From an uncultured Prevotellaceae bacterium (GTDB lineage Bacteria; Bacteroidota; Bacteroidia; Bacteroidales; Muribaculaceae): 64,000 nucleotides of DNA. The DNA lies in contig ONGE01000008.1 in NCBI GenBank assembly GCA_900317325.1, positions 124,001-188,000 on the forward strand, written 5' to 3'. How positions within the stretch are numbered: position 1 is the stretch's first letter; the number at the start of each line of letters is the position of its first letter. A model generated the notes under the pieces. That model saw only the letters and a list, made by a program, of their open reading frames with translations. It was not told the DNA's origin and did not search any database. Both the position numbers and the translations under genes were made by a program. Shown here piece after piece: positions 9,104 to 53,697 of this stretch.

Positions 9104-10345
9104 TTACTGGGCTGATTCGATGGACTGGAGCTTGTCGGCTTCGCCGAGCTTGTAGTAGATGTCGCGCAAGGCGTTTACCAGCTCGGGGTTGTTGGGGTTG
9201 ATGGCATAGGATTTTTCCAGATAGGGCAAAGCCTCACGATAGATGGGGTTGACCAGGTCGGCAAGTTTCTTGCCATACAAGCGGCTGTTTTGGCGGGTCT
9301 CCATCGCCTTGTTATAGAAATAGCGCCCCACGTTGAACAATCCGCTGGCATTACTGTCATTCAACTCGATGCAACGCTGGTAATAAGGAAACGCCTCATA
9401 GATGCTCTCCTTGCTCTCGATCACCAGTCCCTTGAGGTTGAGCAACTCATCGTCGTTGGGAGTGGCTTCCAAGGCGTCGTCAAGCAAGTCATTAGCACCC
9501 GAGAAATCCTCACGGCTCAGGTAGCTGTTGATCAAGATGCGGATGTATTGCGGGTCACTGGTGCCGAACTTGAGAAAAGCCTCCCAAGCCAATTTCACCA
9601 CTTCCTCTTCATTGCCCAGGTCACTCAGGCACACCAGCGCGTAGTCATAGACCTCCTTGTGGTTATAGCCCGAATGGCGGGCAATGCTGAACAGGCGCAC
9701 GGCATCGATGGTATCGGTCATTTGCCATGCTGCAATGCCTTGGTAGTAACGCACCTCGGCCACGACAGTGTCGGCCTTGGCCCAGCGCGGGTCATCGGTT
9801 CTCGCCGCCATTTGGCAGTAGTAGTCCCAAGCCTTGTAGGCACCGTCCCAGTCCTTGACATTATACAATTCGCTGCCGGCGATACGATAGTTGTCGTGAT
9901 GCTCGACAAGGCGATTGACCACATCCTTGCTGTATTTAGTCCTCACTTTGGGTCGCTTGGTCTTCTTGTCAATTACGGGCTGGCCTTTCTTGTCCAAAAC
10001 GTGAATCGTGTCGAGATGGAGTGCATTGATGCTGTAATCATAGGCATCGATGAGCGAATGCCCCATCGCCTTCACGTCAATGTTCTTACCCACACGACGG
10101 TTATCCATGTATTTGTCGTAAAGTTCAATCTTGATGCGGTTGGCCAGCGCCCATGTCTCGGCACGGTTGCGCGTCTCGTCGTTGGTCAAGGCGGGTTTGA
10201 ACTTATTGAATGCCTTGTTATAACTGTCGACTGTCATCGTCAAGCCACTGATATCTTTCTTGGCCTGTGCCAACAGCTGATGCTGGGCCGTGACATGAAA
10301 AGCCACAGCCACAACCGTGATCAATATGATAGCTATCTTTTTCAC
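9104..10345 (-). CDS. Secreted TPR-repeat protein (second copy)
   Basis: This 413-residue protein has a Sec signal peptide (residues 1 to about 20, ending HVTAQ) and helical tetratricopeptide repeats through most of its length. One clear TPR motif is near the C-terminus (ALPYLEKSYAINPNNPELVNAL). It is a paralog of the next gene upstream (10503-11645): both share the N-terminal KPALTN/QPALTN block, the SxDxIxxVDKK-like central block and the YRE/YDRALPFLEK-type end. It has its own promoter, because a terminator separates the two genes. Periplasmic location is expected; its partner is unknown. Confidence 0.8.
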   Translation of the reverse strand: MKKIAIILITVVAVAFHVTAQHQLLAQAKKDISGLTMTVDSYNKAFNKFKPALTNDETRNRAETWALANRIKIELYDKYMDNRRVGKNIDVKAMGHSLIDAYDYSINALHLDTIHVLDKKGQPVIDKKTKRPKVRTKYSKDVVNRLVEHHDNYRIAGSELYNVKDWDGAYKAWDYYCQMAARTDDPRWAKADTVVAEVRYYQGIAAWQMTDTIDAVRLFSIARHSGYNHKEVYDYALVCLSDLGNEEEVVKLAWEAFLKFGTSDPQYIRILINSYLSREDFSGANDLLDDALEATPNDDELLNLKGLVIESKESIYEAFPYYQRCIELNDSNASGLFNVGRYFYNKAMETRQNSRLYGKKLADLVNPIYREALPYLEKSYAINPNNPELVNALRDIYYKLGEADKLQSIESAQ

Positions 10346-36366: not shown

Positions 36367-37278
36367 ATGAATACCATTAAGAATTTTGATGAGTTACTTG
36401 CTCATCTCAAAGAGAACAATGTGAAGAAACGCGTGGCTGTAGTTTGGGCTGCCGACGAGAAGACTCCCGCCGCTTGTGCCCAAGCACTTGAAGCCGGATT
36501 TATCGAAGCCATCTTTGTGGGTTGTGAAGAGAAGCTCAAAGCCAACGAGGCCTTGAAGCCCTTTGCCGCAAGCATGAGTTTTGTCGATGCCAGCGATGCC
36601 GATGACGCTGCTGCCAAGGCCGTAGCCCTGGTGCGCGAGGACAAGGCCGACGTGCTGATGAAAGGTCTGATCAACACCGACAACCTGCTGCGCGCCGTCC
36701 TGAACAAGGAAACCGGCATTCTGCCCAAGGGCAACGTGCTGACCCACGCCGCCGTGGCTTCAATCCCCAGCTACCACAAATTCCTCATCTTCACCGATGC
36801 CGCTGTAATTCCCTACCCCAACCAGGCTCAACGCGTGGAGATGGTGAAATATATGGCCAACGTGGCACGCAACTTCGGCGTCGAGGAGCCCAAGGTGGCC
36901 CTGATCCACTGCACCGAGAAGGTGAACGGCAAGCATTTCCCCTTCACCGAGGACTATCCCGTGATCATCGAGATGGCCAAGAACGGCGAGCTGGGCAAGT
37001 GCATCGTTGACGGTCCCCTGGATGCCAAGTGCGCATGCAGCATGCACGCCATGGAGGCTAAGGGCCTGACCTCTCCCCTGATGGGCGACAGTGACGTGCT
37101 CATCATGCCCGACATCGAGGCCGGTAACGTATTCTACAAAGCCATCACGCTGTTTGCCGGTGCCAGCACCGCCGGTCTGCTGCTGGGTGCCAAGTGCCCC
37201 GCCGTGGTTCCCTCGCGTGCCGACAGCGCCCAGTCCAAGTTCTACAGCCTGGCTGTAGCCACGATGGCCGCCGAGTAA
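36367..37278 (+). CDS. ptb: Phosphate butyryltransferase (Ptb-like)
   Basis: This 303-residue enzyme of the phosphate acyltransferase family swaps CoA and phosphate on acyl groups. Family blocks are DVLMKGLINTDNLLRAVLNKETG, LTHAAVASIPSYHKFL, DAAVIPYPN, VDGPLDAKCA and GDSDVLIMPDIEAGN. Its length fits Ptb rather than the longer Pta, and the next gene is a butyrate kinase. Together they can turn butyryl-CoA, or branched acyl-CoA from amino acids, into acid with ATP made. The true substrate cannot be told from sequence alone. Confidence 0.88.
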   Translation: MNTIKNFDELLAHLKENNVKKRVAVVWAADEKTPAACAQALEAGFIEAIFVGCEEKLKANEALKPFAASMSFVDASDADDAAAKAVALVREDKADVLMKGLINTDNLLRAVLNKETGILPKGNVLTHAAVASIPSYHKFLIFTDAAVIPYPNQAQRVEMVKYMANVARNFGVEEPKVALIHCTEKVNGKHFPFTEDYPVIIEMAKNGELGKCIVDGPLDAKCACSMHAMEAKGLTSPLMGDSDVLIMPDIEAGNVFYKAITLFAGASTAGLLLGAKCPAVVPSRADSAQSKFYSLAVATMAAE

Positions 37279-37334
37279 TAATCAATTACCAATTACACAT
37301 TACACTAAACCAAGTCTATTAAACACGATAAACA

Positions 37335-38390
37335 ATGAAAGTATTAGTCATCAATCCGGGTTCCACTTCCACCAAGATGGCAGTCGTTGAGGACGGCGAA
37401 CCCCGCCTGATTAAAGTCATCCGTCATGCCGCCGAAGAGCTGGCTCCGTTTGCCAAGATTACCGACCAGTTCGACTTCCGTCGCAAAATGATTCTCAACG
37501 AGCTTGAGAATGCTGGAATTCCCGTTGAGTTTGATGCCATTGTCGCTCGCGGCAGCTTGACCAAGCCGCTTCCCGGCGGTGTGTATGCCGTTGACGAGAA
37601 CATGATCCAGGCCACCTATGCCAGCGAGCACCAGCACGCCTGCGACCTGGGTTGCGTCATCGCCCGCGAGATTGCCAAGGGCCTGGGATGCCCCTGCTAT
37701 ATCGCCGACCCTGTTGTGACCGACGAGCTGAACGACTATGCCCGCGTGTGCGGTTTGGCTATGTTCAAGCGCGAGAGCATCTGGCACGCCCTTAACCAGC
37801 GCGCCATCGCACGTCGCTTTGCCAGGGAGAACGGCAAGCGTTACGAGGACCTGAACCTCATCGTTGCCCACCTGGGTGGCGGCATCTCGGTAGCAGCCCA
37901 CGATCATGGTCGCGCCGTTGACGTGAACAACGCCCTGGACGGCGAAGGTCCGTTCTCGCCCGAACGCGCCGGCAGCCTGCCCGCTAAAGCGCTGGTAAAC
38001 CTGTGCTTCAGCGGTGAATACACCAAGGACGAGATTCTCAAGATGATCTCGGGCAAGGGTGGCGTATTCTCACACCTGGGCACGACCGACATGATTGAGG
38101 CCGAGAAGATGATGAACAATGGCGACGAGCATGCTAAGCTCGTCATCAACGCCATGATTTATCACATTGCCAAGGCTATCGCCGAGAAGGGCGCTGTGCT
38201 GTGCGGCAAGATCGATGCCATCCTCATCACCGGCGGTATCGCTTACTGGCAGTACATGGTTGACGAGCTCAAGAAACGCGTCGACTGGATGGCTCCCGTT
38301 CACGTATATCCCGGCGAGGACGAGATGTCGGCCCTGGCCGAGAACGCCTTCGGCGCTCTCAATGGTGACATCAAGGTGATGAAGTACTAA
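37335..38390 (+). CDS. buk: Butyrate kinase (acetokinase family)
   Basis: This 351-residue member of the ASKHA kinases uses acyl phosphate to make ATP. The N-terminal phosphate loop is INPGSTSTKMAV (about 6-17). Later blocks are GGIYAVD-like GGVYAVDENM, RRFARENGKRYEDLN, VAHLGGGISVAAH, GEGPFSPERAGSLP and LITGGIAYW. It lies 56 bp behind ptb, in a gap with short TTAC words (CAATTACC, AATTACAC, ATTACAC). Branched-chain fatty acid kinase is the main alternative. Confidence 0.92.
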   Translation: MKVLVINPGSTSTKMAVVEDGEPRLIKVIRHAAEELAPFAKITDQFDFRRKMILNELENAGIPVEFDAIVARGSLTKPLPGGVYAVDENMIQATYASEHQHACDLGCVIAREIAKGLGCPCYIADPVVTDELNDYARVCGLAMFKRESIWHALNQRAIARRFARENGKRYEDLNLIVAHLGGGISVAAHDHGRAVDVNNALDGEGPFSPERAGSLPAKALVNLCFSGEYTKDEILKMISGKGGVFSHLGTTDMIEAEKMMNNGDEHAKLVINAMIYHIAKAIAEKGAVLCGKIDAILITGGIAYWQYMVDELKKRVDWMAPVHVYPGEDEMSALAENAFGALNGDIKVMKY

Positions 38391-39849: not shown

Positions 39850-42556
39850 TGTTGAAACTGGAGTGCTTGTCATACTTCACATCCTGCAGGATGGACGACT
39901 TGACAGCGATATGGAAGTTATAGCTTTTGTAGGGGCCCACCGGAACGAAGCTGGCGCTCATCTCGAAGCAGTGCATCTGACGCGAGATCGAGCAGTTCAT
40001 ATAGGCAATCTTGTGTGTGTCGAAATTGTAGCTTGCCGAAGCCGTGAAGGACCAGTTCTTGGTGGGACGGATGTTGGCGTTCATGCTCAGGTTCTGGGTC
40101 CAGCGGCCGTTGTACTCTAATTTCTTGTAGTTGAACGAGCCGTAGCCGTAGGAAAGGGAGTAATTGACCGTCAAGCTCCACGGGCAATCCCACTTGGCAT
40201 AGCCGTCGATGAGCTCCAGGTCGGTTGTGGTACCACCCCTACGATTGTCATCTTCCTGCTGCTCCTCCTCACCTCTGTTGGACTGATTCTGGGTGGACTT
40301 GTTGTCCTGAGTCTTGCTCTTGTCGCGCTTGCGCTTGAAAGTGTCGTTGTTGAAGGTGTAGGAGAACGAGGTGCCGGTGCTGGAAAGTCGTCCCCAACCA
40401 CCGCCGTTGAACAAGCGCAACTTGTTGATGCGGACAGGAGTTCCGGCCTCGTTGACGGCATATTTATAGACGTCCCAGGTAGCGCTCAAGTTGAGGTTGA
40501 AACCCTTGACCAATCGCAGCAGGATGCTCGTGTTGAGGTTACTCCACTTGAGCGAGTCGGCAGCCAAGTTACACGACTGGCTCAGGGTCAAGTTCTCGAT
40601 AAGTGAAATCTTCTTGAAACCCGTGCTGTCATTGTCACTCTTGATCTTGGCCTCCAGATTGTTGGCGATATTGAACATGATGGTTCCCGACTTGCCGTTG
40701 GGCGCGCCGCCGTACAAGCCGTGCTGGAAGTAACTGTACCTGTTGTTGTGATGAACGCCCTTGGCATCGACATAGTCAAGATTGCCGTAGTATCCCCAGA
40801 AGGGGTCTCCGAAATCGGGAGCTGCCGAGAACGAGATGGTCGGTGTCATCACATGGCGCACCATCTGCAATTTCTCACTCAGCTTGCCCAGGAACTTCAG
40901 CGGCTTGAAGAAGCCATAGACCTTGGTACTCATCGAGACACCGAAGCTGAAGTCGAAGATATTGTAGAAACTGTAGGTGGTATCCCTGACGATCGCACTG
41001 GAGTTAGGATCCCATTGTTGTCGTATCTTGCTGGTGTACATGCGGTCATTCAAGGTGATGCTGGGCGTGATGTTGAAGTACTTCATCACATTGAAGGTTG
41101 CCTGAATAGGCACCGTGTGGCTGATGCCGTTACGCCAGTCCTTGACCAGGTTCTTGTGCAGGAACTCGTCCTGCTTGGCGGTCAACGAGTTCTGGAATTT
41201 TCCTGTGTAGCTGACCTTGATTTTCTCATACCAGCGCTCGTCACCCACAGCGCGCTTGCGCTTGAAGGGGGCGTTCTGGCTCATGGTGACGGTCAGGTTG
41301 GGGAACGAGACGGTGATGGTCGAGTCGGCCGTGCGCTGCGAGACGTTTGCTGTTGTCGAGATGGTCCACTTGCTGTTGGGAATCTTGTAGGTCAGATTCA
41401 CGGTACTGCTCTTGGTGTTCTCGGTAAAGGAGTTGGTGTAATAGGTATTCAGGCTGTTGCGGGCATAGCCGGTGGTGGCGAAGTTGACGCTGGCCGAGAA
41501 GGTCAAGTAGGGGTTGGCCTTCTGGCTCTGGCTGTGATTCCACAATACCTGGAAGTTGTGCATCTTGTTGTAGTCGGGGTCACCCTTCTCGCCCGTCACC
41601 GTGGTCAGGTAATTGACACTGAACGAACCCGAGTGCTTGTAGCGCCAGGAATAAGAGGACTGGGCCGACAAGCCCCACGAACCGCGCGTGTAGATTTCGC
41701 CCGTGATGGCCAGGTCGGCATGTTGTCCCAGCGCCAGGTAGTAGCCGCCATTACGCAGGTAGAAACCCCTGTTATAGTCCTCACCGAAGGTGGGCATCAG
41801 GATACCGCTCTGGTATTTCTCGCTGAAGGGGAAATAGCCAAAGGGCACCGCAATGGGCAACGGCAAGTCCTCGAGCACCATATAGGCCGGGCCGGTAACC
41901 ACATTATGTTTGGGCTTCACCTTGGCCTTGGTCAACTGGAAATAGAAGTGAGGATGCTCGTGGTCGTCACAGGTGGTGTAGCGACCATCCTTAATATAAT
42001 AGTAGTCGTCCTCGGTCTTCTTGGTGACGCCGCCGGTAAGGTAGCCCTCGCCCTGCTCGGTGACGATGTCGGTGATGTAACCACGCTTGGTCTTGAAGTT
42101 GTATTTCATCACCCGCGACTCGTACTCGCCGCTCTGGTCCCTGAACACAGGATTACCGTTGAGATCGCCGATGCTGTCGAGCACACCCACAGCCTGCACT
42201 TGGCTACTGTCCATGTCCATGCTGATCTGTGAAGCGCTCATGTCGATGTCACCATAGAGGATTTTGCTGCCGCCATACATCACCGCATGGTTGCGCCCGA
42301 ACAAGATGATACTGTCCTTGGCATTGAACTCGACCACATGGTCCAGATCGACACGCTCCCGCACAAAGCGGCTCGTGCTGTCGCGACCAGGTGTCGTATT
42401 CTGCAGCTTTACCGAGTCCACCTCGGCCTTGACAATGGAATCCACCGCCTGGTTCAAGTTGAGTGAGTTTCCAGTCACTACTTGACCATGCGACAACAGC
42501 GGCAGCAGTATCAGCACTGCCACCAGACTGAAGATGATATGCAGACTCCTCGTCAT
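39833..42556 (-). CDS. lptD: LPS-assembly outer-membrane protein LptD
   Basis: This 907-residue protein has a signal peptide (about 1-25, ending LLSHGQ). An N-terminal OstA/jelly-roll part (about 60-210; DSIILFGRNHAVMYGGSKILYGD, GGVTKKTEDDYYYIKDGRYTTCDD) precedes a large beta barrel. The barrel blocks start with PLPIAVPFGYFPF and many WKY/YSW strands follow. It is the Bacteroidetes type, which inserts lipopolysaccharide in the outer leaflet. The start MTRSLHII is chosen because a TATCTTTG box (42575-42582) overlaps the earlier codon at 42577. The amidase gene overlaps its 3' end. Confidence 0.92.
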   Translation of the reverse strand: MTRSLHIIFSLVAVLILLPLLSHGQVVTGNSLNLNQAVDSIVKAEVDSVKLQNTTPGRDSTSRFVRERVDLDHVVEFNAKDSIILFGRNHAVMYGGSKILYGDIDMSASQISMDMDSSQVQAVGVLDSIGDLNGNPVFRDQSGEYESRVMKYNFKTKRGYITDIVTEQGEGYLTGGVTKKTEDDYYYIKDGRYTTCDDHEHPHFYFQLTKAKVKPKHNVVTGPAYMVLEDLPLPIAVPFGYFPFSEKYQSGILMPTFGEDYNRGFYLRNGGYYLALGQHADLAITGEIYTRGSWGLSAQSSYSWRYKHSGSFSVNYLTTVTGEKGDPDYNKMHNFQVLWNHSQSQKANPYLTFSASVNFATTGYARNSLNTYYTNSFTENTKSSTVNLTYKIPNSKWTISTTANVSQRTADSTITVSFPNLTVTMSQNAPFKRKRAVGDERWYEKIKVSYTGKFQNSLTAKQDEFLHKNLVKDWRNGISHTVPIQATFNVMKYFNITPSITLNDRMYTSKIRQQWDPNSSAIVRDTTYSFYNIFDFSFGVSMSTKVYGFFKPLKFLGKLSEKLQMVRHVMTPTISFSAAPDFGDPFWGYYGNLDYVDAKGVHHNNRYSYFQHGLYGGAPNGKSGTIMFNIANNLEAKIKSDNDSTGFKKISLIENLTLSQSCNLAADSLKWSNLNTSILLRLVKGFNLNLSATWDVYKYAVNEAGTPVRINKLRLFNGGGWGRLSSTGTSFSYTFNNDTFKRKRDKSKTQDNKSTQNQSNRGEEEQQEDDNRRGGTTTDLELIDGYAKWDCPWSLTVNYSLSYGYGSFNYKKLEYNGRWTQNLSMNANIRPTKNWSFTASASYNFDTHKIAYMNCSISRQMHCFEMSASFVPVGPYKSYNFHIAVKSSILQDVKYDKHSSFNNGVTW

Positions 42557-42604: not shown

Positions 42605-42666
42605 GCAAGTTTTAATTTTATTATCTTTTTTTAGCATCACGAGGACAACAAGTGGTTTCTTTTTGT

Positions 42667-42674
42667 TATCTTTG
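42667..42674 (+). promoter_or_regulatory. -7 box of hydG
   Basis: TATCTTTG lies 37 nt before the ATG at 42711, which rules out the in-frame opening at 42663. Confidence 0.55.
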
Positions 42675-42710
42675 CAGGTTGTAAAGAAATCAACTAATAA
42701 CAGTAATATC

Positions 42711-44126
42711 ATGTATAACGTCAAATCAAACCATGCCGATGAGTTCATCGACGACAGTGAGATACTGGAAACACTATCATACGCTGAAAAGAACAAGAGC
42801 AATCGTGCTCTGATTGAGAAAATCATCAATAAGGCAGCCTTGTGTAAAGGCTTGACACACCGCGAGGCAGCGGTGCTGCTCGATTGTGACCAGCCCGACC
42901 TGATCGAGCGCTACGAGCAGCTGGCCAAGGACGTGAAACGTCGCTTCTACGGCAATCGCATCGTGATGTTTGCACCGCTTTACCTGTCGAACTATTGCAT
43001 CAACGGGTGCGTTTATTGCCCCTACCATGCCAAGAACAAGACCATTCCGCGCAAGAAACTGTCGCAGGACGAAATCCGCGCCGAGGTCGAGGCCCTGGTC
43101 AAGATGGGTCACAAGCGCATTGCCCTGGAGGCCGGTGAGCACCCCGTGATGAATCCGCTGGAGTATATCCTGGAGTCAATCCACACCATCTATGACACCA
43201 AGGTGGGCAACGGAGAAATCCGCCGCCTGAACGTGAACATCGCCGCTACCGAGGTCGAGGCCTACGAGAAACTCAAGGCCGCCGGCATCGGTACCTATAT
43301 CCTGTTCCAGGAGACTTATAACCGCAAGAACTACGAGGCCCTGCATCCCACGGGCCCCAAGAGCAACTACTGCTACCACACCGAGGCCATGGACCGCGCT
43401 CAGATGGGCGGCTGTGACGATGTGGGCATCGGCGTGCTCTACGGCTTGACGACCTACCGCTACGATTTCGTGGGCCTGCTCATGCATGCCGAGCACTTGG
43501 AGGCCAAGTTCGGCGTCGGCCCGCACACCATCAGCGTGCCGCGCATCTGCCCCGCCGAGGACATCACCCTCGACGAGTTCCCCGACGTGCTGCCCGATGA
43601 TATCTTCTGCCGCATCATTGCCGTGATTCGTCTGGCAGTGCCTTACACCGGCATGATCATCTCGACACGCGAGAGCCAGAGTGTACGTACCAAGGTCCTT
43701 GACCTGGGTGTTTCTCAGATCAGCGGCGGCAGCCGTACCAGCGTGGGTGGTTACACCACCGTCGAACGCCACGACGAGACGGCACAATTCGACGTGAGCG
43801 ACACGCGCAGCCTCGACGAGGTCATCAACTGGCTGTTGTCGATCGGTTACCTGCCCAGCTTCTGCACCGCCTGCTACCGTTCGGGCCGCACCGGCGACCG
43901 CTTCATGGAACTGTGCAAGGCCGGCAAGATCGGCGATATCTGCACGCCTAACGCGCTGATGACGCTCAAGGAGTACCTCATGGACTTCGCCAGCGAGGAC
44001 ACGGTTGCCAAGGGCAACATCCTCATCGAACAGGAACTGGCCAAGATCAAGAATGCACGCGTGCGCGAAATCGCCGCCCAGCACATCGGCGAGATTGCTG
44101 CCGGCAAGCGTGACTTCTACTTCTAA
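42711..44126 (+). CDS. hydG: [FeFe]-hydrogenase maturase HydG (radical SAM tyrosine lyase)
   Basis: This 471-residue enzyme splits tyrosine to supply CO and cyanide for the H-cluster. The radical SAM motif CX3CX2C is C96, C100 and C103 (NYCINGCVYC). The C-terminal auxiliary-cluster motif CX2CX22C is C385, C388 and C411, which separates HydG from the similar ThiH. It comes before hydF, with a hairpin in the gap. hydE, the third maturase, is not in this window. A thiamine role (ThiH) is unlikely given the C-terminal Cys set and its neighbours. Confidence 0.95.
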   Translation: MYNVKSNHADEFIDDSEILETLSYAEKNKSNRALIEKIINKAALCKGLTHREAAVLLDCDQPDLIERYEQLAKDVKRRFYGNRIVMFAPLYLSNYCINGCVYCPYHAKNKTIPRKKLSQDEIRAEVEALVKMGHKRIALEAGEHPVMNPLEYILESIHTIYDTKVGNGEIRRLNVNIAATEVEAYEKLKAAGIGTYILFQETYNRKNYEALHPTGPKSNYCYHTEAMDRAQMGGCDDVGIGVLYGLTTYRYDFVGLLMHAEHLEAKFGVGPHTISVPRICPAEDITLDEFPDVLPDDIFCRIIAVIRLAVPYTGMIISTRESQSVRTKVLDLGVSQISGGSRTSVGGYTTVERHDETAQFDVSDTRSLDEVINWLLSIGYLPSFCTACYRSGRTGDRFMELCKAGKIGDICTPNALMTLKEYLMDFASEDTVAKGNILIEQELAKIKNARVREIAAQHIGEIAAGKRDFYF

Positions 44127-44229: not shown

Positions 44230-45432
44230 ATGGTAGATAATAATTTTAACAGGGCACCACGGAGCGAAAGGTTGCACATTGCGCTGTTCGGACGACGCAA
44301 TGCGGGCAAATCGTCGCTAATCAACGCGCTCACAGGTCAACAGACCGCTCTGGTGAGCGATGTGCCCGGCACGACAACCGATCCGGTGATGAAATCGATG
44401 GAGATACTGCCGTTGGGCCCATGTGTACTTATCGACACGGCGGGCTTTGACGACAGCGGCAAGGTGGGTGACCTGCGCACCGAACGCACCCGTGAGGTCA
44501 TCAAGCAGACCGATATCGCCATCCTCGTTACCGACGGCAGTTCACTTGATGACGAGGCGACATGGGCCACGTTGCTCAAGCAAGCCAACGTGCCCTTTAT
44601 CACAGTATTGAACAAGGTGGACCTGCTGGAAGAGGTGCCCTCTACCCTACTTGAGGACATGGCCAAGCGACTGGGCTGCGATGTCGTTCCCGTCAGCGCC
44701 ATCAACGGCACTGGGCTGGACACGCTGAGGAACACTTTAGCCGGGCTCATGCCCGAAAGCGAGAAACAGTCGCTCACAGGCGACCTTGCCCATCCCGGCG
44801 ATACAGTGCTGCTGGTCATGCCGCAAGACCCGCAAGCCCCCAAAGGCCGCCTGATCCTGCCTCAAGTGCAGACCCTGCGCGACCTGATGGACAAACGGTG
44901 CATCGCCATCTGCTGCACCACCGATGATATCGACAGCACCCTTGCCGCCTTAAAAGAGCCGCCCCGATTGATCATCACCGATTCCCAGGTGTTTGACATC
45001 GTCGAGAAGAAAAAACCTGAGGGAAGCCTACTCACCTCGTTCTCGGTGCTGATGGCGGCCCATAAGGGCGACATCCGTTTCTTTGTCAGGAGCGCCATGG
45101 CCATTGACCGCATGACCGAGCAATCGCGCGTGCTCATTGCCGAAGCCTGCACCCATGCCCCGCTGGCCGAGGACATCGGCCGCGAGAAGATTCCCCGCAT
45201 GCTGCGTCAACGCGTGGGACAAGGATTGACCGTGGACATTGTAGCCGGCAAAGATTTCCCTGAAGATGTAACAAGTTATGACCTCGTGATCCATTGTGGC
45301 GGCTGCATGTTCAACCGCAAGTTCATGCTCTCGCGCGTGGACCAATGCCGCCGTCAAGGCACACCCATGACCAACTACGGCATCACCATCGCACATCTCA
45401 AAGGCATCCTGGGCAAGGTGTCCCTGCCTTGA
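44230..45432 (+). CDS. hydF: [FeFe]-hydrogenase maturation GTPase HydF
   Basis: This 400-residue protein is the scaffold that carries the [2Fe] part of the H-cluster to HydA. The N-terminal GTPase has G1 GRRNAGKS (21-28), PGTTTDPV, DTAG and LNKVDL. The C-terminal cluster-binding domain has CTH (EACTHAPL) and later HCGGC. It follows hydG on the same strand and faces the 603-residue hydrogenase. Confidence 0.95.
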   Translation: MVDNNFNRAPRSERLHIALFGRRNAGKSSLINALTGQQTALVSDVPGTTTDPVMKSMEILPLGPCVLIDTAGFDDSGKVGDLRTERTREVIKQTDIAILVTDGSSLDDEATWATLLKQANVPFITVLNKVDLLEEVPSTLLEDMAKRLGCDVVPVSAINGTGLDTLRNTLAGLMPESEKQSLTGDLAHPGDTVLLVMPQDPQAPKGRLILPQVQTLRDLMDKRCIAICCTTDDIDSTLAALKEPPRLIITDSQVFDIVEKKKPEGSLLTSFSVLMAAHKGDIRFFVRSAMAIDRMTEQSRVLIAEACTHAPLAEDIGREKIPRMLRQRVGQGLTVDIVAGKDFPEDVTSYDLVIHCGGCMFNRKFMLSRVDQCRRQGTPMTNYGITIAHLKGILGKVSLP

Positions 45433-45568: not shown

Positions 45569-47380
45569 TTAGAGGATTGACTTGTCGCGATACTTGGTGT
45601 GGAGTATTTCGTGAGCCTTGCCATGAAGCGGCTCGCCGAGGAACTCGCGATAAAGACGCTGAATAACAGGGTTTTCATGGCTCTTGCGCAACCGCTTGCC
45701 CACATCCTCACTGTAGATGGCACGCTGGCGGGCTTTGATGACCTCGATATCGCCATGGTGGTAAGGTTGACCCGTACCGCCGATGCAACCACCGGGACAT
45801 GCCATCACCTCGATAACATGATAATCCATTTCACCTGCACGCAGTTTGTCCATAACAATGCGGGCATTGGCCAACGTATTGACCACGCAAACCTTCAATT
45901 CAAAGCCGTTGAGGTCGATGACGGCCTCATGGATACCGTCCAGGCCGCGCACTTGTTCAAACTCGACATAGGACAGCTCCTGTCCGGTGAATTCCTCATA
46001 CACCGTTCGCAACACTGCCTCCATGACACCGCCAGTCGTACCGAAGATGGCTCCGGCGCCACTGGAGTCTCCCAGCGGTGAATCAAACTCGCCGTCCAGC
46101 AAGGAGTCGAAGTCGAGATTCATGCGCTTGATCAGCTCAGCCAGCTCGATAGTGGTGACCGAGTAGTCCACATCGGGGTTGCCGTCGGTGATGAACTCGT
46201 CGCGTGCACATTCATACTTCTTGGACAAGCAAGGCATCACTGATACTACAACCAGTTTATCGCGAGGGATGCCCATGCGTTGGGCCCAGAAGGTCTTGAG
46301 TACAGCACCCAGCATCTGGGCGGGTGACTTGCAGGTCGAGGGATACTCCCTCAAGTCGGGATAGTCGTTTTCAAAGAAGTTGACCCATGCCGGGCAGCAC
46401 GAGGTAGTGATGGGAATACGCACGGTTTTGTCCCCGGCAATGAATTTGCGCAGGCGGTCAACAATCTCGGCAGCCTCCTCCATAATGGTGATGTCGGCAC
46501 CGAAGTCGGTATCGAACACATAGTCCACGCCCACCTTGCGCAGGGCCGTAATCATCTTGCCTGTCACGATGCTGCCGGGAGGCATGCCGAACTCCTCGCC
46601 CAGCGCATAGCGCACCGCCGGAGCTGTTTGAGCCACGACGATCTTGTCGGGGTCGGCGACATCAACCAGCAGATCCTCGACATAGTTGCGCTCGCTGAGT
46701 GCGCCCACGGGGCCGTGGATGGCGTCGAACTTGCACTTGGTCGTGCAATGACCGCAGCATGTGCATTTATAAGGATTGACCACATGGGGGTGGCGCAAAT
46801 CGCCCACAATGGCTTGGCTGGAGCAACCACGCTTGCAGGCGCCACAACCCTTGCACTTGTCGGCATCAATCTTGTAGGACATTACCGACAAGAATCTCTT
46901 GCCGCCAATCTCGTAGATGTAGTCATGCAACATGGCATCCATCGAGAGCTGCTTGGGATAGGAACTCCAGTGCTTGGAGTCATCCATCAACTGATGGGCT
47001 GTGAAGTCAACATACTGCAAGCGCTCGAGCAGACGTCCATCGATGATGTGCGTTTTGACGATATCTTCAACGTCTTCAGGGTGCACCTGGACGTAGGTCG
47101 TGTTGTCAGGCATAATCCTGACGATGGGTCCCTTGGCACAGAAGCCAAAGCAACCCGTTGCCACTACATCCACACGGCTGCCTAAACCATAGGCGGCGAT
47201 GACACGGATAAAATTGTCAATGATTTTCAAGCTGCCCGATTCATAGCATGACGAACCACAGCAGCACAGGACCTGGACATGTTGGTTACCGATCAGACCG
47301 TATGCCTCCGAGGCATTGTCTGATTGCACTTCACCATTCGCCTTTTTCGACGTTTCGTTGAGTTGAGAATCCATTGACAA
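45569..47380 (-). CDS. [FeFe] hydrogenase with N-terminal Trx-like [2Fe-2S] domain
   Basis: This 603-residue enzyme should make or oxidise H2. In order: a Trx-like [2Fe-2S] domain (C40, C45, C77, C81), a linker, two [4Fe-4S] clusters (C176, C179, C182, C186; C206, C209, C212, C216) and the H-cluster domain with L1 TSCCPAW (C328, C329), L2 MPCLSKK (C384) and L3 MACPGGC (C528, C532). A small-subunit-like tail ends it. It lacks the NuoF-type FMN/NADH part and the [2Fe-2S]/His-cluster part found in the larger HydBA. Each piece matches HydBA residues (about 43-170, 577-633, 862-1226). It may take electrons from ferredoxin or from the diaphorase. Confidence 0.9.
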   Translation of the reverse strand: MSMDSQLNETSKKANGEVQSDNASEAYGLIGNQHVQVLCCCGSSCYESGSLKIIDNFIRVIAAYGLGSRVDVVATGCFGFCAKGPIVRIMPDNTTYVQVHPEDVEDIVKTHIIDGRLLERLQYVDFTAHQLMDDSKHWSSYPKQLSMDAMLHDYIYEIGGKRFLSVMSYKIDADKCKGCGACKRGCSSQAIVGDLRHPHVVNPYKCTCCGHCTTKCKFDAIHGPVGALSERNYVEDLLVDVADPDKIVVAQTAPAVRYALGEEFGMPPGSIVTGKMITALRKVGVDYVFDTDFGADITIMEEAAEIVDRLRKFIAGDKTVRIPITTSCCPAWVNFFENDYPDLREYPSTCKSPAQMLGAVLKTFWAQRMGIPRDKLVVVSVMPCLSKKYECARDEFITDGNPDVDYSVTTIELAELIKRMNLDFDSLLDGEFDSPLGDSSGAGAIFGTTGGVMEAVLRTVYEEFTGQELSYVEFEQVRGLDGIHEAVIDLNGFELKVCVVNTLANARIVMDKLRAGEMDYHVIEVMACPGGCIGGTGQPYHHGDIEVIKARQRAIYSEDVGKRLRKSHENPVIQRLYREFLGEPLHGKAHEILHTKYRDKSIL

Positions 47381-47640: not shown

Positions 47641-47697
47641 TATTGATAATTCTGCGAATAATCCACTCAATTCTAATAATAGGTGAAAAATGTTAAT

Positions 47698-47705
47698 TAT
47701 TTTTG
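47698..47705 (+). promoter_or_regulatory. -7 box of the S41 peptidase gene
   Basis: TATTTTTG lies 42 nt before the ATG at 47747 and excludes the earlier frame opening at 47690. Confidence 0.5.
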
Positions 47706-47746
47706 CAATAATTAGCACCGTAAAAAACCATAGACTATTGCAACTC

Positions 47747-49414
47747 ATGAAAATGAATTATCATCTCACTAGAGCCTCTTTGCTCATTATGTTGGCCCTT
47801 TTACTTGGGGCCAGCAAGGCGTGGGCGCAAGTGCCCACCGACTCGATTGTCGCCGACTTCAAATATTTTGTCAAACTCCTTGAAGAGCGGCATCCCGACC
47901 CCTACAGCGGTTATGGAGGCAAACCATACTTCCGCATGGCCGCAAGCGATGCCCGCAACGCGCTTCTCAAAGACAAGGTCACCGACGTCAGGGAGTTTGC
48001 TTATCGCATCAATGAATTCCTGGCACCGCTGAAAGACGGCCATACCGTCGCAATGCCTGACGGTCATGATGTCCCAGGCCACTTCCCTGTTCAATATACC
48101 GATCCGGCGACGCTCATCACCCTCGAGGCCATCAACGACGGCATCATTGTCAAGGCACTGCCCGAGGAGTACAAGGGTCTGGTGGGCAGCCGCCTTGTCG
48201 CTATCGAGAATGTGGCGGTCAACGACCTGGCCAGCGGCATGGCAAAATACTTCATCGCCGAGAACGAGATTGGACGCATGATGAATCTGGCGCATTACGC
48301 GATGCAACCCAAAGCCCTGCGTAAAGTGATCCCCACCCTGGGCGATGCCACAATCACCTATCAGTTGAAGACCCCTAAAGGGAAGAAAGCCGAAGTGACC
48401 TTACCCGTTGTACCGTTCAATCAGGTGCTGCAATTCCAGGCCCAATCGGCAAGGCCGAGCAGTTTCCCTGCCAAACCATTCAGCTATGATTTCCTCGGTA
48501 TGCTCCAATATGGCTTTGCTGACGAGGGGAACAACACGATGTACTTCCATGTGGCACACATGATCGCAAGAGATGTGCTGGAATACGATAAGGAACATGG
48601 TTATGACTATAAAAGCTTGCTACAAGGCATCTACAGTATTGCCGGCATGCCTGTACCCGACAATGAGGATTTCGCCATTGCCATGATACCATCGCTGAAT
48701 GAAGAATTCGAGAAGATGCTGCAGCTGATGAAGCAAAACGGCAGCAAGGACCTGATCATCGACCTGCGCGGCAATGGTGGAGGCACAACAAATATCATTT
48801 ATCCGCTGGTTTATCAATTATATGGCGACAGGTACCTGAAAGAGTGTTACCGTGATGAGAAAGGCCTCTATCTGCTTACTCCCCATTCAATGAGTGAAGC
48901 CGATCTCGAACAAATGAATGCCACAAATGAGTACAAGCTGGAATATGGCGACTATCTGGACCTTTCAGAGGTTAGCTACCATAATACAAGCATCGAAAAT
49001 ATGCGTAAAAGCTTCATTGACGGCAGCATGTGCAGCATCAAGGACAAACTGCGTGCACAAAACGGCCAACCCGCCTATAATCCCGAGCACGTATATGTAG
49101 TCACTGACCCATTGACATTCAGTGCCGCATTCCACATGGCTTACTACCTGTGGAAGATGGGTGCGACAGTTGTCGGCGTTTCCAGCAGCCAGGCGCCCAA
49201 CACCTTCATGGGCAATCAGGCGTTTTACCTGCCTCGCACCGGTCTAACCGGGGATATCTGTGGAACGATTCAGATTTTCTTCCCCGACAATGACCCGCGT
49301 GCCAAACAGTTCACGCCCGACCTGATGACGACCTATGAGGACTACAAGCGTTACAACTTCGATGACAACACCCCCATCCTCTACCTACTGGACATCATCA
49401 AGAATAAGAAATAA
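47747..49414 (+). CDS. Secreted S41-family peptidase-like protein
   Basis: This 555-residue protein has a signal peptide (about 1-28, ending KAWAQ). An N-terminal helical part contains LEERHPDPYSGYGG. The core is tail-specific-protease-like, with LIIDLRGNGGGTTN and the presumed nucleophile Ser in DPLTFSAAFHMAYYL. No clear PDZ domain is visible. The family degrades periplasmic or exported proteins. Its base (Lys or other) cannot be named from sequence alone. It sits between the two hydrogenase units, but its link to them is not obvious. Confidence 0.8.
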   Translation: MKMNYHLTRASLLIMLALLLGASKAWAQVPTDSIVADFKYFVKLLEERHPDPYSGYGGKPYFRMAASDARNALLKDKVTDVREFAYRINEFLAPLKDGHTVAMPDGHDVPGHFPVQYTDPATLITLEAINDGIIVKALPEEYKGLVGSRLVAIENVAVNDLASGMAKYFIAENEIGRMMNLAHYAMQPKALRKVIPTLGDATITYQLKTPKGKKAEVTLPVVPFNQVLQFQAQSARPSSFPAKPFSYDFLGMLQYGFADEGNNTMYFHVAHMIARDVLEYDKEHGYDYKSLLQGIYSIAGMPVPDNEDFAIAMIPSLNEEFEKMLQLMKQNGSKDLIIDLRGNGGGTTNIIYPLVYQLYGDRYLKECYRDEKGLYLLTPHSMSEADLEQMNATNEYKLEYGDYLDLSEVSYHNTSIENMRKSFIDGSMCSIKDKLRAQNGQPAYNPEHVYVVTDPLTFSAAFHMAYYLWKMGATVVGVSSSQAPNTFMGNQAFYLPRTGLTGDICGTIQIFFPDNDPRAKQFTPDLMTTYEDYKRYNFDDNTPILYLLDIIKNKK

Positions 49415-50016: not shown

Positions 50017-53000
50017 TTAGTGAATGGATTTATCAAAATAGTGCGTGTGAAGCAGGTGATGTGCCTTCTCGCCACAAGGCTCGCCCAGGAAGTCCTTGTA
50101 GAGCTTCTGGATGTCGGGATTCTCGTGGCTCTTGCGCAATGCCTTGCCCTCGTCCTCGCGGTAAACGGCAGCGGCACGTGCCTTGAGAATCTCGATGTTG
50201 CCATGGTGGTAGGGCTGACCAGCGCCACCGATGCAACCGCCGGGACATGCCATCACCTCAACCACATGGTAGTTGAGCTTGCCGGCACGCAGCAGATCCA
50301 TGACCTTGCGGGCATTGCTCAGGGTGTGAGCGATGCAGACCTTCAGCTCAAAGCCGTTGAGGTCGATCGTAGCCTCCCTGATGCCTTCCAGACCGCGCAC
50401 CTCGTTGAACTCGAGGTGAGGCAGGGTCTTGCCGGTGTGCACCTCATAGACGGTGCGCAATGCGGCCTCCATCACACCACCGGTGTTGGCGAAGATAGCG
50501 CCTGCACCCGTGGACTCGCCCAGAGGAGAATCAAAGTCGCCCTCGGGCAGGTTGGTGAAGTCAATATTAGCACGCTTGATCAGGCGACCCAGCTCGCGGG
50601 TCGAGATGCTGTAGTCCACGTCGGGATTGCCATCCACCTTGAACTCATCACGGCCGCACTCATACTTCTTGGCCAAGCAGGGCATGATCGAAACGACAAC
50701 GAGTTTCTCGCGGGGGATACCCATCTTCTCGGCCCAGTAGGTCTTGGCAACAGCGCCAAACATCTGAGCAGGCGACTTGGCAGTCGAGGGATATTCCAGC
50801 AGATCGGGATACTCGTGCTCAAAGAAGTTGACCCAAGCGGGGCAGCACGAAGTCATCACGGGCAGTTTCACGTCTTTATCGCCAGCAAGGAACTTGTTGA
50901 GGCGACCCAGGATCTCGGTACCCTCCTCCATGATGGTGAGGTCGGCAGCGAAGTCGGTGTCGAACACATAGTCGAAGCCGAGGTCGCGCAAGGCGGTAGC
51001 CATCTTGCCAGTAACGATGGTGCCGGGCTTCATGCCGAACTCCTCGCCCAGAGCAACGCGCACTGCAGGTGCGGGCTGAGCAACAACCACCTTGTCGGGG
51101 TTGGTGAGGTCGTCCATGAGCTGGTTGGTATAGTCATGCTCGGTAAGGGCACCGGTGGGACATACGGCGACGCACTGGCCGCAGTAGGTACAGTTGGTGT
51201 CCACGAACATCTTGTCGAAGGTGGGAGCGATGGTGGTGTTGAAACCACGACGGATAGCGCTCAGCACGCCAACAGACTGCACGTTGTTGCAGACGCTCTC
51301 GCAACGGCGGCAGTAAACGCACTTCTCCATGTTGCGGGAGATGGCGGGGGTGAGCTCTTGCTTGCGCTCGCTCTGTTCGCCACCGTTATAGGGCATTTGG
51401 CGGATGTTGAAGCGCATAACCAGGCGCTGCAGTTCACAGTCGCTGCACTTGGGGCAGGTCAAGCAATCGTTGGGGTGGTCGCTAAGCATGAGCTCGGCAA
51501 CGGTCTTGCGGGCACGGATAACGCGGGCGCTATTGGTGTGAACCACCATACCCGGAGTGACGCGGGTGGCGCAAGCGGGAGCCAGATTGCGACGGCCTTC
51601 GATCTCAACAACACAAATGCGGCACGAGGCGGGCATGTTCTGTACACAAGTGCCCTCCAAATCAATGTGGCACAGGGTGGGAATGCTGATGCCGACGGTC
51701 TTGGCGGCGTCGAGCAGCATGGTCCCTGCGGGAACAGTAACCTCGTGTTTATCAATCGTCAAAGTGATCATATTCTTTTCTTCCATGATGCTATCGAATT
51801 TTAATAAACCGAAGCGGCAATTAGACTTACACATACCGCAGCGGATGCACTCGAAGGGGTTAATAATGTGAGGTTTGCGAATGTCGCCCATGATGGCGTT
51901 GGCGGGGCACTTGCGGGCGCAGGCGCCGCAACCCTTACACTTGGAGGCTTCAATGCTGTAGGTCACAAGGGCCTTGCACTGCTTAGCGCGGCAGGTGTGC
52001 TGTTTCACGTGCTCCACATATTCGTCCCAGAAGTTGTTGATAGTCGATAACACAGGATTGGGAGAGGTCTGACCCAGACCGCACAGAGCGGTATCCTTGA
52101 TGATCTCGCCCAGCTCTTTCAGACGGTCAAGGTCTTCCATGGTACCCTTGCCCTCGGTGATGCGGGTGAGGATCTCCAGCATGCGCTTGTTGCCGATACG
52201 GCACGGGGTGCACTTACCGCAGCTCTCATCGCAGGTGAACTCGAGGTAGAACTTAGCCACGCTGACCATACAGTCATCCTCGTCCATGACGATCATACCG
52301 CCAGAACCCATCATCGAACCCGAAGCAGCGAGGTGCTCATAGTCGATGGGGGTGTCGAGGTGCTTCTGCGTCAAGCAGCCACCCGAGGGGCCACCAGTCT
52401 GCACAGCCTTGAACTCCTTACCGTTCTTCACGCCACCACCGATGTCGTAGATGATCTCGCGCAGGGTGGTACCCATGGGAACCTCGATAAGGCCCACGTT
52501 ATTGATCTTACCGGCCAAAGCGAACACCTTGGTACCCTTGCTCTTCTCGGTACCAATCGAGGAGAACCAGTCGGCGCCCTTGGTCAGGATGATGGGCACG
52601 TTGGCGAGGGTCTCGACGTTGTTCACGTTGGTGGGCTTCATGTTGTAACCAGCCTCGGCGGGGAACGGCGGCTTCAGGGTGGGCTCACCACGCTTACCCT
52701 CCATCGAGTGGATAAGGGCGGTCTCCTCACCGCAAACGAATGCGCCAGCACCGTAGCGGATCTCGATATCGAAGTCAAAATCGGTACCCAGGATCTTCTT
52801 GCCCAGCAAACCGTACTCACGAGCCTGCTGGATAGCAATCTTCAGGCGATGAACGGCCAGGGGATACTCGGCACGGATGTAGATCAGACCCTTGTGGGAG
52901 TTGATGCAGTAACCGCAGACGGTCATTGCCTCAATCACCGAGTTGGGGTCACCCTCCATGATGGAGCGGTCCATGAATGCACCGGGGTCGCCCTCATCAG

Positions 53001-53697
53001 CATTGCAGACCACATACTTCTCGTCGGCATCATAGCCACGGGCAAAGCCCCACTTCATACCGGTGGGGAAGCCAGCGCCACCACGTCCACGCAGACCCGA
53101 GGCCTTGATGATCTCAATCACCTCTTCGGGGGTCTGGTTCAGCAGAGCGTTAGCAATACCCTGGTAACCGTCACGAGCGATGTACTCCTCGATGTTCTCG
53201 GGGTCGATCAGACCGCAGTTGCGCAATGCGATACGCATCTGCTTACGGTAGAAGTCCATGTGCTTGCTGTCGCTTACCGTCTGGTTGGTCTTGGGGTCAA
53301 CATAGAGCAGACGCTCCACGCGACGACCGCCAATGATGTGCTCCTTCACGATTTCGGCAGCATCCTCGGGCTTCACCTGGGTGTAGAAGGTGTTGTCGGG
53401 GATAACTTTCACGATCGGGCCCTTCTCACAGAAACCGAAACAGCCGGTGGTGATAACCTCGACCTTGTCGGCAATGCCATTCTCCTCAATGGCAGCCTTG
53501 AGGTTATCAACAATTTTGTGGCTGTTGGATGCCTTACATCCAGTACCGCCGCAGCACAAGAGCTGCAAGTGGTCGGCTCCTGAAGCAAGACCACAACACT
53601 GCTCTGACGTGGAGTCAGAACTTTCCTCGCGCAGCGCTAATGCCTGTTGCGCACGCTTCCTCAAGTTGTTGAGGTCGTTAATAGAAAGTATTTTCAC
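50017..53697 (-). CDS. hydBA: HydB-HydA fusion: NADH-linked [FeFe] hydrogenase
   Basis: This 1226-residue protein joins two full subunits. Residues 1-637 are HydB/NuoF: Trx-like [2Fe-2S] (C49, C54, C86, C90), FMN/NADH sites (GLRGRGGAGFP at 201-211, NADEGDPGAF, GAGAFVCGEET), a [4Fe-4S] set (C493, C496, C499, C539) and two more clusters (587-597, 617-627). Residues 638-1226 are HydA: a [2Fe-2S] domain, a His-ligated cluster (H741, C745, C748, C754), two [4Fe-4S] (793-803, 836-846) and the H-cluster L1 TSCCPAW (C951, C952), L2 MPCLAKK (C1007) and L3 MACPGGC (C1151, C1155). The seam is at M638, with no stop or gap. hydC follows. NADH-dependent or bifurcating H2 production is inferred. Confidence 0.95.
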   Translation of the reverse strand: MKILSINDLNNLRKRAQQALALREESSDSTSEQCCGLASGADHLQLLCCGGTGCKASNSHKIVDNLKAAIEENGIADKVEVITTGCFGFCEKGPIVKVIPDNTFYTQVKPEDAAEIVKEHIIGGRRVERLLYVDPKTNQTVSDSKHMDFYRKQMRIALRNCGLIDPENIEEYIARDGYQGIANALLNQTPEEVIEIIKASGLRGRGGAGFPTGMKWGFARGYDADEKYVVCNADEGDPGAFMDRSIMEGDPNSVIEAMTVCGYCINSHKGLIYIRAEYPLAVHRLKIAIQQAREYGLLGKKILGTDFDFDIEIRYGAGAFVCGEETALIHSMEGKRGEPTLKPPFPAEAGYNMKPTNVNNVETLANVPIILTKGADWFSSIGTEKSKGTKVFALAGKINNVGLIEVPMGTTLREIIYDIGGGVKNGKEFKAVQTGGPSGGCLTQKHLDTPIDYEHLAASGSMMGSGGMIVMDEDDCMVSVAKFYLEFTCDESCGKCTPCRIGNKRMLEILTRITEGKGTMEDLDRLKELGEIIKDTALCGLGQTSPNPVLSTINNFWDEYVEHVKQHTCRAKQCKALVTYSIEASKCKGCGACARKCPANAIMGDIRKPHIINPFECIRCGMCKSNCRFGLLKFDSIMEEKNMITLTIDKHEVTVPAGTMLLDAAKTVGISIPTLCHIDLEGTCVQNMPASCRICVVEIEGRRNLAPACATRVTPGMVVHTNSARVIRARKTVAELMLSDHPNDCLTCPKCSDCELQRLVMRFNIRQMPYNGGEQSERKQELTPAISRNMEKCVYCRRCESVCNNVQSVGVLSAIRRGFNTTIAPTFDKMFVDTNCTYCGQCVAVCPTGALTEHDYTNQLMDDLTNPDKVVVAQPAPAVRVALGEEFGMKPGTIVTGKMATALRDLGFDYVFDTDFAADLTIMEEGTEILGRLNKFLAGDKDVKLPVMTSCCPAWVNFFEHEYPDLLEYPSTAKSPAQMFGAVAKTYWAEKMGIPREKLVVVSIMPCLAKKYECGRDEFKVDGNPDVDYSISTRELGRLIKRANIDFTNLPEGDFDSPLGESTGAGAIFANTGGVMEAALRTVYEVHTGKTLPHLEFNEVRGLEGIREATIDLNGFELKVCIAHTLSNARKVMDLLRAGKLNYHVVEVMACPGGCIGGAGQPYHHGNIEILKARAAAVYREDEGKALRKSHENPDIQKLYKDFLGEPCGEKAHHLLHTHYFDKSIH

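Follow-up and report, generated by a model that had tools for sequence, protein, structure and literature searches.

Two described arrangements of NADH-linked [FeFe]-hydrogenases bear on the locus reported here. The trimeric HydABC enzymes are represented by structures from Acetobacterium woodii (7q4v, 8a5e) and Thermotoga maritima (7p5h). In the T. maritima enzyme the C-terminal 2[4Fe-4S] 'bridge' domain of HydB is mobile; in the structure that contains it, the bridge clusters lie about 32-35 Å from the next clusters, and the proposed bifurcation mechanism needs this ferredoxin domain to swing (PMC9499530). In the hydrogenosomal [FeFe]-hydrogenase of Nyctotherus ovalis, the NADH-flavoprotein and H-cluster modules are part of one polypeptide (PMC2216082, PMC7311640), although this hydrogenase is placed among the non-bifurcating ones (PMC7311640); the single-chain idea is therefore not new. 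Here, we describe a bacterial reading frame that joins HydB to HydA, found in a 64,000-nt stretch of DNA (the window; positions 124,001 to 188,000 of contig ONGE01000008.1, assembly GCA_900317325.1) from an uncultured Prevotellaceae bacterium assigned by GTDB to the Muribaculaceae. The likely explanation, in our view, is that an ordinary hydB-hydA-hydC operon, encoding an NADH-linked and probably bifurcating hydrogenase, has in this genome undergone a recent 11-bp deletion at the hydB 3' end, giving a fused chain. The fusion thus appears to be a one-off, probably recent, and not a new kind of enzyme.

The HydB and HydA domains, their cluster motifs, the adjoining HydC gene, and the GGPSG and Ala/Met residues of HydB are all shared with the trimeric HydABC enzymes. 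Unlike in those enzymes, HydB and HydA share one frame in the window, HydA is without the C-terminal [2Fe-2S] extension described for T. maritima, and the equivalent of T. maritima Phe367 is Asn. The Nyctotherus chain differs in that its 24-kDa (HydC-like) module is fused too, whereas HydC in the window is a separate gene, and in that the fusion in the window stems from one small deletion. Among the papers listed by a literature search, judged by title or the start of the abstract, there was no bacterial case of HydB and HydA in a single polypeptide. Overall, the interest of the fusion is modest, raised slightly by the tethering of the bridge domain and by a neighbouring chimeric hydrogenase gene, here called X.

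The fused reading frame and its seam

The frame (Table 1) runs unbroken for 1226 codons and encodes both HydB and HydA in full, as revealed by the open reading frame (ORF) listing, Pfam and comparison with the PDB; the original prediction put the mass of its product at about 135 kDa. In the HydB half, Pfam placed 2Fe-2S_thioredx at residues 45-119, Complex1_51K at 197-368, SLBB at 392-440, NADH_4Fe-4S at 480-563 and Fer4 at 581-628, and in the HydA half Fer2_4 at 642-723, NADH-G_4Fe-4S_3 at 730-767, Fer4 families at about 784-854, Fe_hyd_lg_C at 869-1159 and Fe_hyd_SSU at 1169-1223. In line with this order, residues 44-632 aligned with A. woodii HydB (7q4v_B, 6-596 of 599) and residues 644-1223 with A. 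woodii HydA1 (7q4v_A, 4-579 of 583). All cysteine, Fe-S and H-cluster motifs that were sought are kept, including the cysteines of the C-terminal 2[4Fe-4S] clusters of HydB (B3 and B4) at 587-597 and 617-627. The H-cluster of HydA is marked by the motifs TSCCP, MPCxxKxxE and ExMxCxGGC, which are found here as TSCCPAW at 949, MPCLAKKYE at 1005 and EVMACPGGC at 1147; both Fe_hyd_lg_C and TIGR02512 scored above their cut-offs on the fused protein. Full-length matches of the frame in other genomes of the genus (congeners) reached 76-96% protein identity, so the fused ORF is not a chance one.

These results uphold much of the original prediction, which had been made from the letters of the sequence and described an uninterrupted frame from a NuoF-like subunit into HydA, intact ligands in both halves, a HydC-type gene following, and a methionine, M638, where a free HydA would start. 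M638 is encoded by an ATG whose first base is 51786, and the same residue begins HydA (MEEKNMITLTID) after a stop in the congeners, where the start is inferred. No further frame break was found within hydB, hydA or hydC of the window. Compared with locus L070, the nearest congener in that comparison, the HydA half has 60 synonymous codon differences and 7 non-synonymous ones; to judge from these counts, HydA shows no sign of decay, although most of its divergence from L070 may predate the deletion.

Comparison with congener DNA revealed how the two genes came to share a frame. Past the last cluster cysteine of HydB, the loci L067, L069 and L070 read CGCTTC GACGCCATCTC GGTTTATTAAAATTCGATAGCATCATGG, and the window is without the middle 11 bases. 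Removing these 11 bases from the congener DNA yields an exact copy of the window's 69 bases before the hydA ATG in 4 of 12 congener loci (L067, L069, L070 and L077), and the remaining eight show one or two additional base differences. The triplet TCG is repeated at both ends of the deletion. In L067, L069 and L070 the HydA frame differs from that of HydB and is open upstream, so that loss of 11 bp shifts HydB into it and leaves the hydB TAA out of frame. By blastn, the deletion was the sole insertion or deletion (indel) within the hydB-hydA coding region against L066, L069 and L070, while against L067 there was also a compensating pair of 1-base differences near 53490. The hydA ATG and the 26 bases preceding it are intact, and identical to those of 5 of the 12 congeners tested. 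Downstream of the last cysteine, the congener sequence R-F-D-A-I-S-V-Y has become R-F-G-L-L-K-F; since F-G-L-L resembles the F-G-S-I of A. woodii HydB, the ferredoxin fold of HydB is probably unharmed by its changed tail.

Based on these comparisons, we propose that hydB recently lost 11 bp from its 3' end, so that HydB is without its final residues (the nearest congeners have DAISVY there) and the TAA is out of frame, and that the ribosome would continue through a stretch of 13 residues, GLLKFDSIMEEKN, into HydA. One long chain would be made and would assemble with HydC, with electrons passing from NADH through FMN (flavin mononucleotide), a [4Fe-4S] cluster and the HydA clusters to the H-cluster, as in HydABC. 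In this chain, the HydB C-terminal 2[4Fe-4S] domain would be tethered through the presumably flexible GLLKFDSIMEEKN to the N-terminal [2Fe-2S] domain of HydA, and some free HydA may still arise from the kept ATG.

Predicted enzyme type and proposed tethering of the bridge domain

Residues reported as characteristic of bifurcating-type HydB are, in T. maritima numbering, Ala/Glu232, Met234, the GGPSG motif and Phe367 (PMC7311640). In the HydB half, with equivalence judged through A. woodii HydB and not T. maritima HydB itself, the signatures are present as GDPGAFMDR at 236 and GGPSG at 435. Because the bifurcating residues occur at two of the three sites, the enzyme is predicted to use NADH and ferredoxin together. 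Apart from the fusion, nothing sets it apart from other HydABC enzymes predicted to bifurcate, and it most likely functions like them, but with its bridge domain tethered to HydA.

In an AlphaFold2 model of residues 165-1226, the mean predicted local distance difference test (pLDDT) was 77, with values of at least 70 for 808 of the 1062 residues and below 50 for residues 578-642, that is, the bridge domain and the seam. The low values at 578-642 are compatible with a flexible tether but also with the shallow alignment (31 rows). The original prediction had supposed that a fusion would fix the NADH site in place beside the H-cluster. This is unlikely because the piece tethered to HydA is the ferredoxin-like C-terminal domain of HydB, a domain that moves in the T. 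maritima enzyme (PMC9499530) and that is modeled here with low confidence. If the fused protein is real and active, its covalent link between bridge domain and HydA would offer a direct, natural test of the swing requirement.

Distribution of the fusion and alternative explanations

A six-frame reading of the fetched loci yielded 185 junctions with separate hydB and hydA, 172 of them distinct and at least 64 of these from the window's genus. None of the 172 other distinct junctions is fused, and the frame in the window, which was also read as locus L001, was the sole ORF with both NuoF and H-cluster domains. The fusion, whose frequency in Bacteroidales the original prediction had left open, is not supported as a layout of the group: the close relatives examined carry two genes, an outcome that the original prediction had itself named as refuting, and one 11-bp deletion accounts for the fused frame. 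Between the hydB stop and the inferred hydA start the median distance was 18 nt (165 junctions), and hydB and hydA lie in the same frame in 33 of the 64 distinct congener junctions (the share over all junctions, 127 of 172, is biased by locus ranking and was not used). That fusion is so rare despite the short spacing and the frequently shared frame suggests that separate chains are usually preferred.

The wider genome samples, with one genome per species, agree with this picture. In the family sample (119 genomes), matches across both halves were confined to the window's genus, in 6 of 7 sampled genomes including the window's own, and two of those six match as two pieces. Of the 101 genomes of the genus, 76 gave a match to the locus at E<=1e-20 and 25 gave none. 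In the order sample (393 genomes, searched with X), no HydA frame longer than 744 aa other than that of the window was found among the matches listed, and none of the selected and fetched long frames of the phylum sample (296 genomes) is truly fused, all being divided by stops. Phyla beyond Bacteroidota were covered through the best 80 contig loci, of which a handful are titled Bacillota, Desulfovibrio-type or Cetobacterium.

Apparent open-frame lengths from the genome searches run through stops, and the DNA of candidates was reread. A fusion throughout the genus, as apparent frames of about 1235 aa in several congeners had indicated, was rejected in this way, the fetched ones carrying a stop between the genes. 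Likewise, apparent frames of 1641-1670 aa in five phylum-sample genomes were rejected as bacterial HydB-HydA fusions, since in all five the DNA shows a HydB-containing ORF of 1046-1059 aa, a stop and a separate HydA. HydB-type ORFs of this length, with some 450-480 residues beyond the NuoF/SLBB region, were seen in six loci of the same phylum but outside the class of the window's genome (L214-L218 and L221), and in L214-L218 the separate HydA comes after them.

Several points weigh against an ordinary bifurcating operon fused by a recent deletion. The fusion is known only from the assembled sequence of one genome. The equivalent of T. maritima Phe367 is Asn352, although this position varies in relatives (Leu in 10, Asn in 7, Lys in 4, Trp in 4, Met in 2 and Phe in 2 of 31 rows including the window), and the best NCBIfam model, NF040763 (877.8 bits for the fused protein, above the curated cut-off of 765), labels HydA 'group A6' (NADH-dependent [FeFe] hydrogenase) and not A3. 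Lesions in hydB or hydA are present in other assemblies of the genus as well, so that an assembly origin is possible: among 69 congener loci, some from the same genome, surveyed by coarse length and piece criteria with two short contig-end HydA ORFs not counted, hydB lies in two frames in L101 (genome G128), hydA is frameshifted in L098 (G184), and L068 (G167) has a deletion just past the hydA start. The 11-bp deletion could accordingly be an error of assembly or consensus calling, or a variant carried by a minority of the population, in an organism that makes two normal subunits, which we regard as unlikely. Comparison with the more distant genome G169 (15 kb aligned) gave 15 non-triplet indel calls inside ORFs including the seam, many of them clustered at 42370-42556 near the start of one gene. 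Against this stands the comparison with genome G133, in which about 44 kb of window ORFs were aligned. Of 24 non-triplet indels inside called ORFs, those other than the seam are paired with a neighbour or lie at the end of a gene, between genes or in an antisense ORF, as read from the list and not from a computed test. By this reading, the local assembly looks clean. In addition, the loss of 11 bp between 3-bp repeats is unlike a homopolymer-type error, and junction fusions occur elsewhere. In L149, a named record (Parabacteroides sp. PF5-6, NZ_JAQFIN010000003.1, ORF at 9776 (+)), HydA and HydC are fused in frame (744 aa), and open junction-spanning frames thus occur outside the window's genus; a 744-aa frame in genome G415 of the order sample is perhaps from the same organism. 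In L060 (G183:C23), from a congener, HydA and HydC are likewise fused in frame (734 aa). These resemble the fusion in the window in that a gene boundary of the same operon is lost, but at another junction, and L149 keeps the HydA tail through HTHYHD, while in L060 a deletion of about 90 bp removes the last ~25 residues of HydA and its stop. As a post-hoc remark on five cases, gene junctions are the site of three of the five events in the genus (window, G167 and G183), a preference that would not be expected of errors falling blindly.

If the fused frame is real, the organism may make two products, the chain of 1226 aa and a free HydA that starts at the internal ATG (51786). We hold this as possible: the ATG and the 26 bases upstream are as in five congeners that start HydA there after the hydB stop, and the 18-nt median spacing implies that translation of HydA normally begins locally or by coupling, although ribosomes passing through the site may suppress it. 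With this start intact, the 1:1 ratio of HydB to HydA that the original prediction expected to be forced by the fusion may not hold. It is rather improbable that the fused allele has lost its function, or part of it, and is heading to decay. The genus genomes with no locus match and the broken copies in others would fit such a course, as would the second hydrogenase, X, in the same window, but hydB, hydA and hydC are otherwise free of frame breaks, and the seam exchanges F-D-A-I for F-G-L-L, near the A. woodii sequence. Finally, the original prediction implied a selected, specialised single-chain HydBA enzyme. A fixed stoichiometry would follow from it, and the Nyctotherus enzyme (PMC2216082) provides a precedent for a single-chain NADH-linked [FeFe]-hydrogenase; the absence of such a fusion at every other junction read and among the matches listed of the order sample makes this reading highly improbable.

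The neighbouring chimera X and the surrounding genes

The window encodes a second [FeFe]-hydrogenase, X, which the original prediction did not mention. Pfam identified 2Fe-2S_thioredx at residues 32-110, a 2[4Fe-4S] ferredoxin at about 170-220 and the H-cluster domain at 246-535, with no NuoF and none of the HydA N-terminal clusters. In piecewise BLAST, the thioredoxin-like and ferredoxin parts matched HydB and the rest matched HydA. The ferredoxin part scored a median of 81 bits against HydB of the genus versus a best of 49 bits against HydA, where the HydB group includes a few truncated X copies, the source of its top matches. X retains its H-cluster motifs and eight ferredoxin cysteines, and scores 574.4 bits with NF040763, below the cut-off.

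In a tree of H-cluster domains (110 rows, thinned to 30 of 37 X, 30 of 67 genus HydA, 45 of 103 other HydA and 5 of 5 relatives), X formed one clade (Shimodaira-Hasegawa-like approximate likelihood ratio test, SH-aLRT, 99), nested inside a clade of genus HydA and a few relatives, some titled rumen (SH-aLRT 100). Near full-length X (match from residue 24 or earlier) was found in 55 of 101 genus genomes, counting the window's own, and two further genomes have a partial copy. Among the matches listed for the order sample, none from a genome other than the window's begins before X residue 147. From its domains and distribution, X is best read as a chimera of HydB and HydA that is older and has been retained. 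It is most likely a hydrogenase with no NADH site of its own that works with ferredoxin or with a partner protein, and it is more interesting than the fusion itself.

The best PDB match of X was CbA5H of Clostridium beijerinckii (9rkm, 30jk), in which a similar ferredoxin domain is joined directly to the H-cluster domain; unlike X, with its HydB-type thioredoxin-like [2Fe-2S] domain, CbA5H carries an SLBB domain and a Zn site (PMC13397568). No SLBB match was obtained in X at E<=0.001, the 2Fe-2S_thioredx domain being in its place. The architecture of X was not found described in the literature surveyed, which is no proof that it is unpublished. An AlphaFold2 model of X was weak (mean pLDDT 51, 18 close sequences) and was not used. 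Tentatively, loss of gene boundaries in the operon may be how the genus comes by HydB/HydA proteins of one chain, once in the old, maintained X, which would work as a separate flavin-free hydrogenase with the HydB bridge clusters wired to the H-cluster, and anew in the full HydB-HydA that tethers the bridge domain. If so, the new protein would test whether movement of the bridge is needed for bifurcation.

Table 1. Positions in the window of the hydrogenase and maturase genes and of the parts of the fused frame.
Feature	Position	Strand	Basis
Fused hydB-hydA ORF, 1226 aa, GTG start	50017..53697	-	ORF listing, Pfam, PDB comparison
HydB part and seam linker, residues 1-637: thioredoxin-like [2Fe-2S], FMN/NADH (NuoF) domain, SLBB, [4Fe-4S], C-terminal 2[4Fe-4S]	51787..53697	-	
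HydA part, residues 638-1226: [2Fe-2S], His/Cys [4Fe-4S], 2[4Fe-4S], H-cluster domain, small-subunit tail	50020..51786	-	
Seam: 11-bp deletion site (~51809-51813, ends in 3-bp TCG repeat) down to the kept hydA ATG (51784-51786)	51784..51813	-	Comparison with congener DNA
HydC, NuoE-like thioredoxin-fold [2Fe-2S] subunit, 164 aa	49494..49988	-	ORF listing, Pfam, NCBIfam
X, second [FeFe]-hydrogenase, 603 aa: HydB thioredoxin-like [2Fe-2S], HydB-type 2[4Fe-4S], HydA H-cluster domain	45569..47380	-	Pfam, piecewise BLAST, tree
HydF, H-cluster maturation GTPase	44230..45432	+	TIGR03918, 543 bits
HydG, H-cluster radical-SAM maturase	42663..44126	+	TIGR03955, 840 bits

Together with HydE, which is present elsewhere in the genome, HydF and HydG complete the HydE, HydF and HydG set. 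Phosphate butyryltransferase-like and butyrate kinase genes at 36367-38390 (+) suggest butyrate formation beside the hydrogenase cluster. Between HydC and X, on the opposite strand, lies a gene of the S41-peptidase family (47690-49414, +), a region that aligns in G133 as well.

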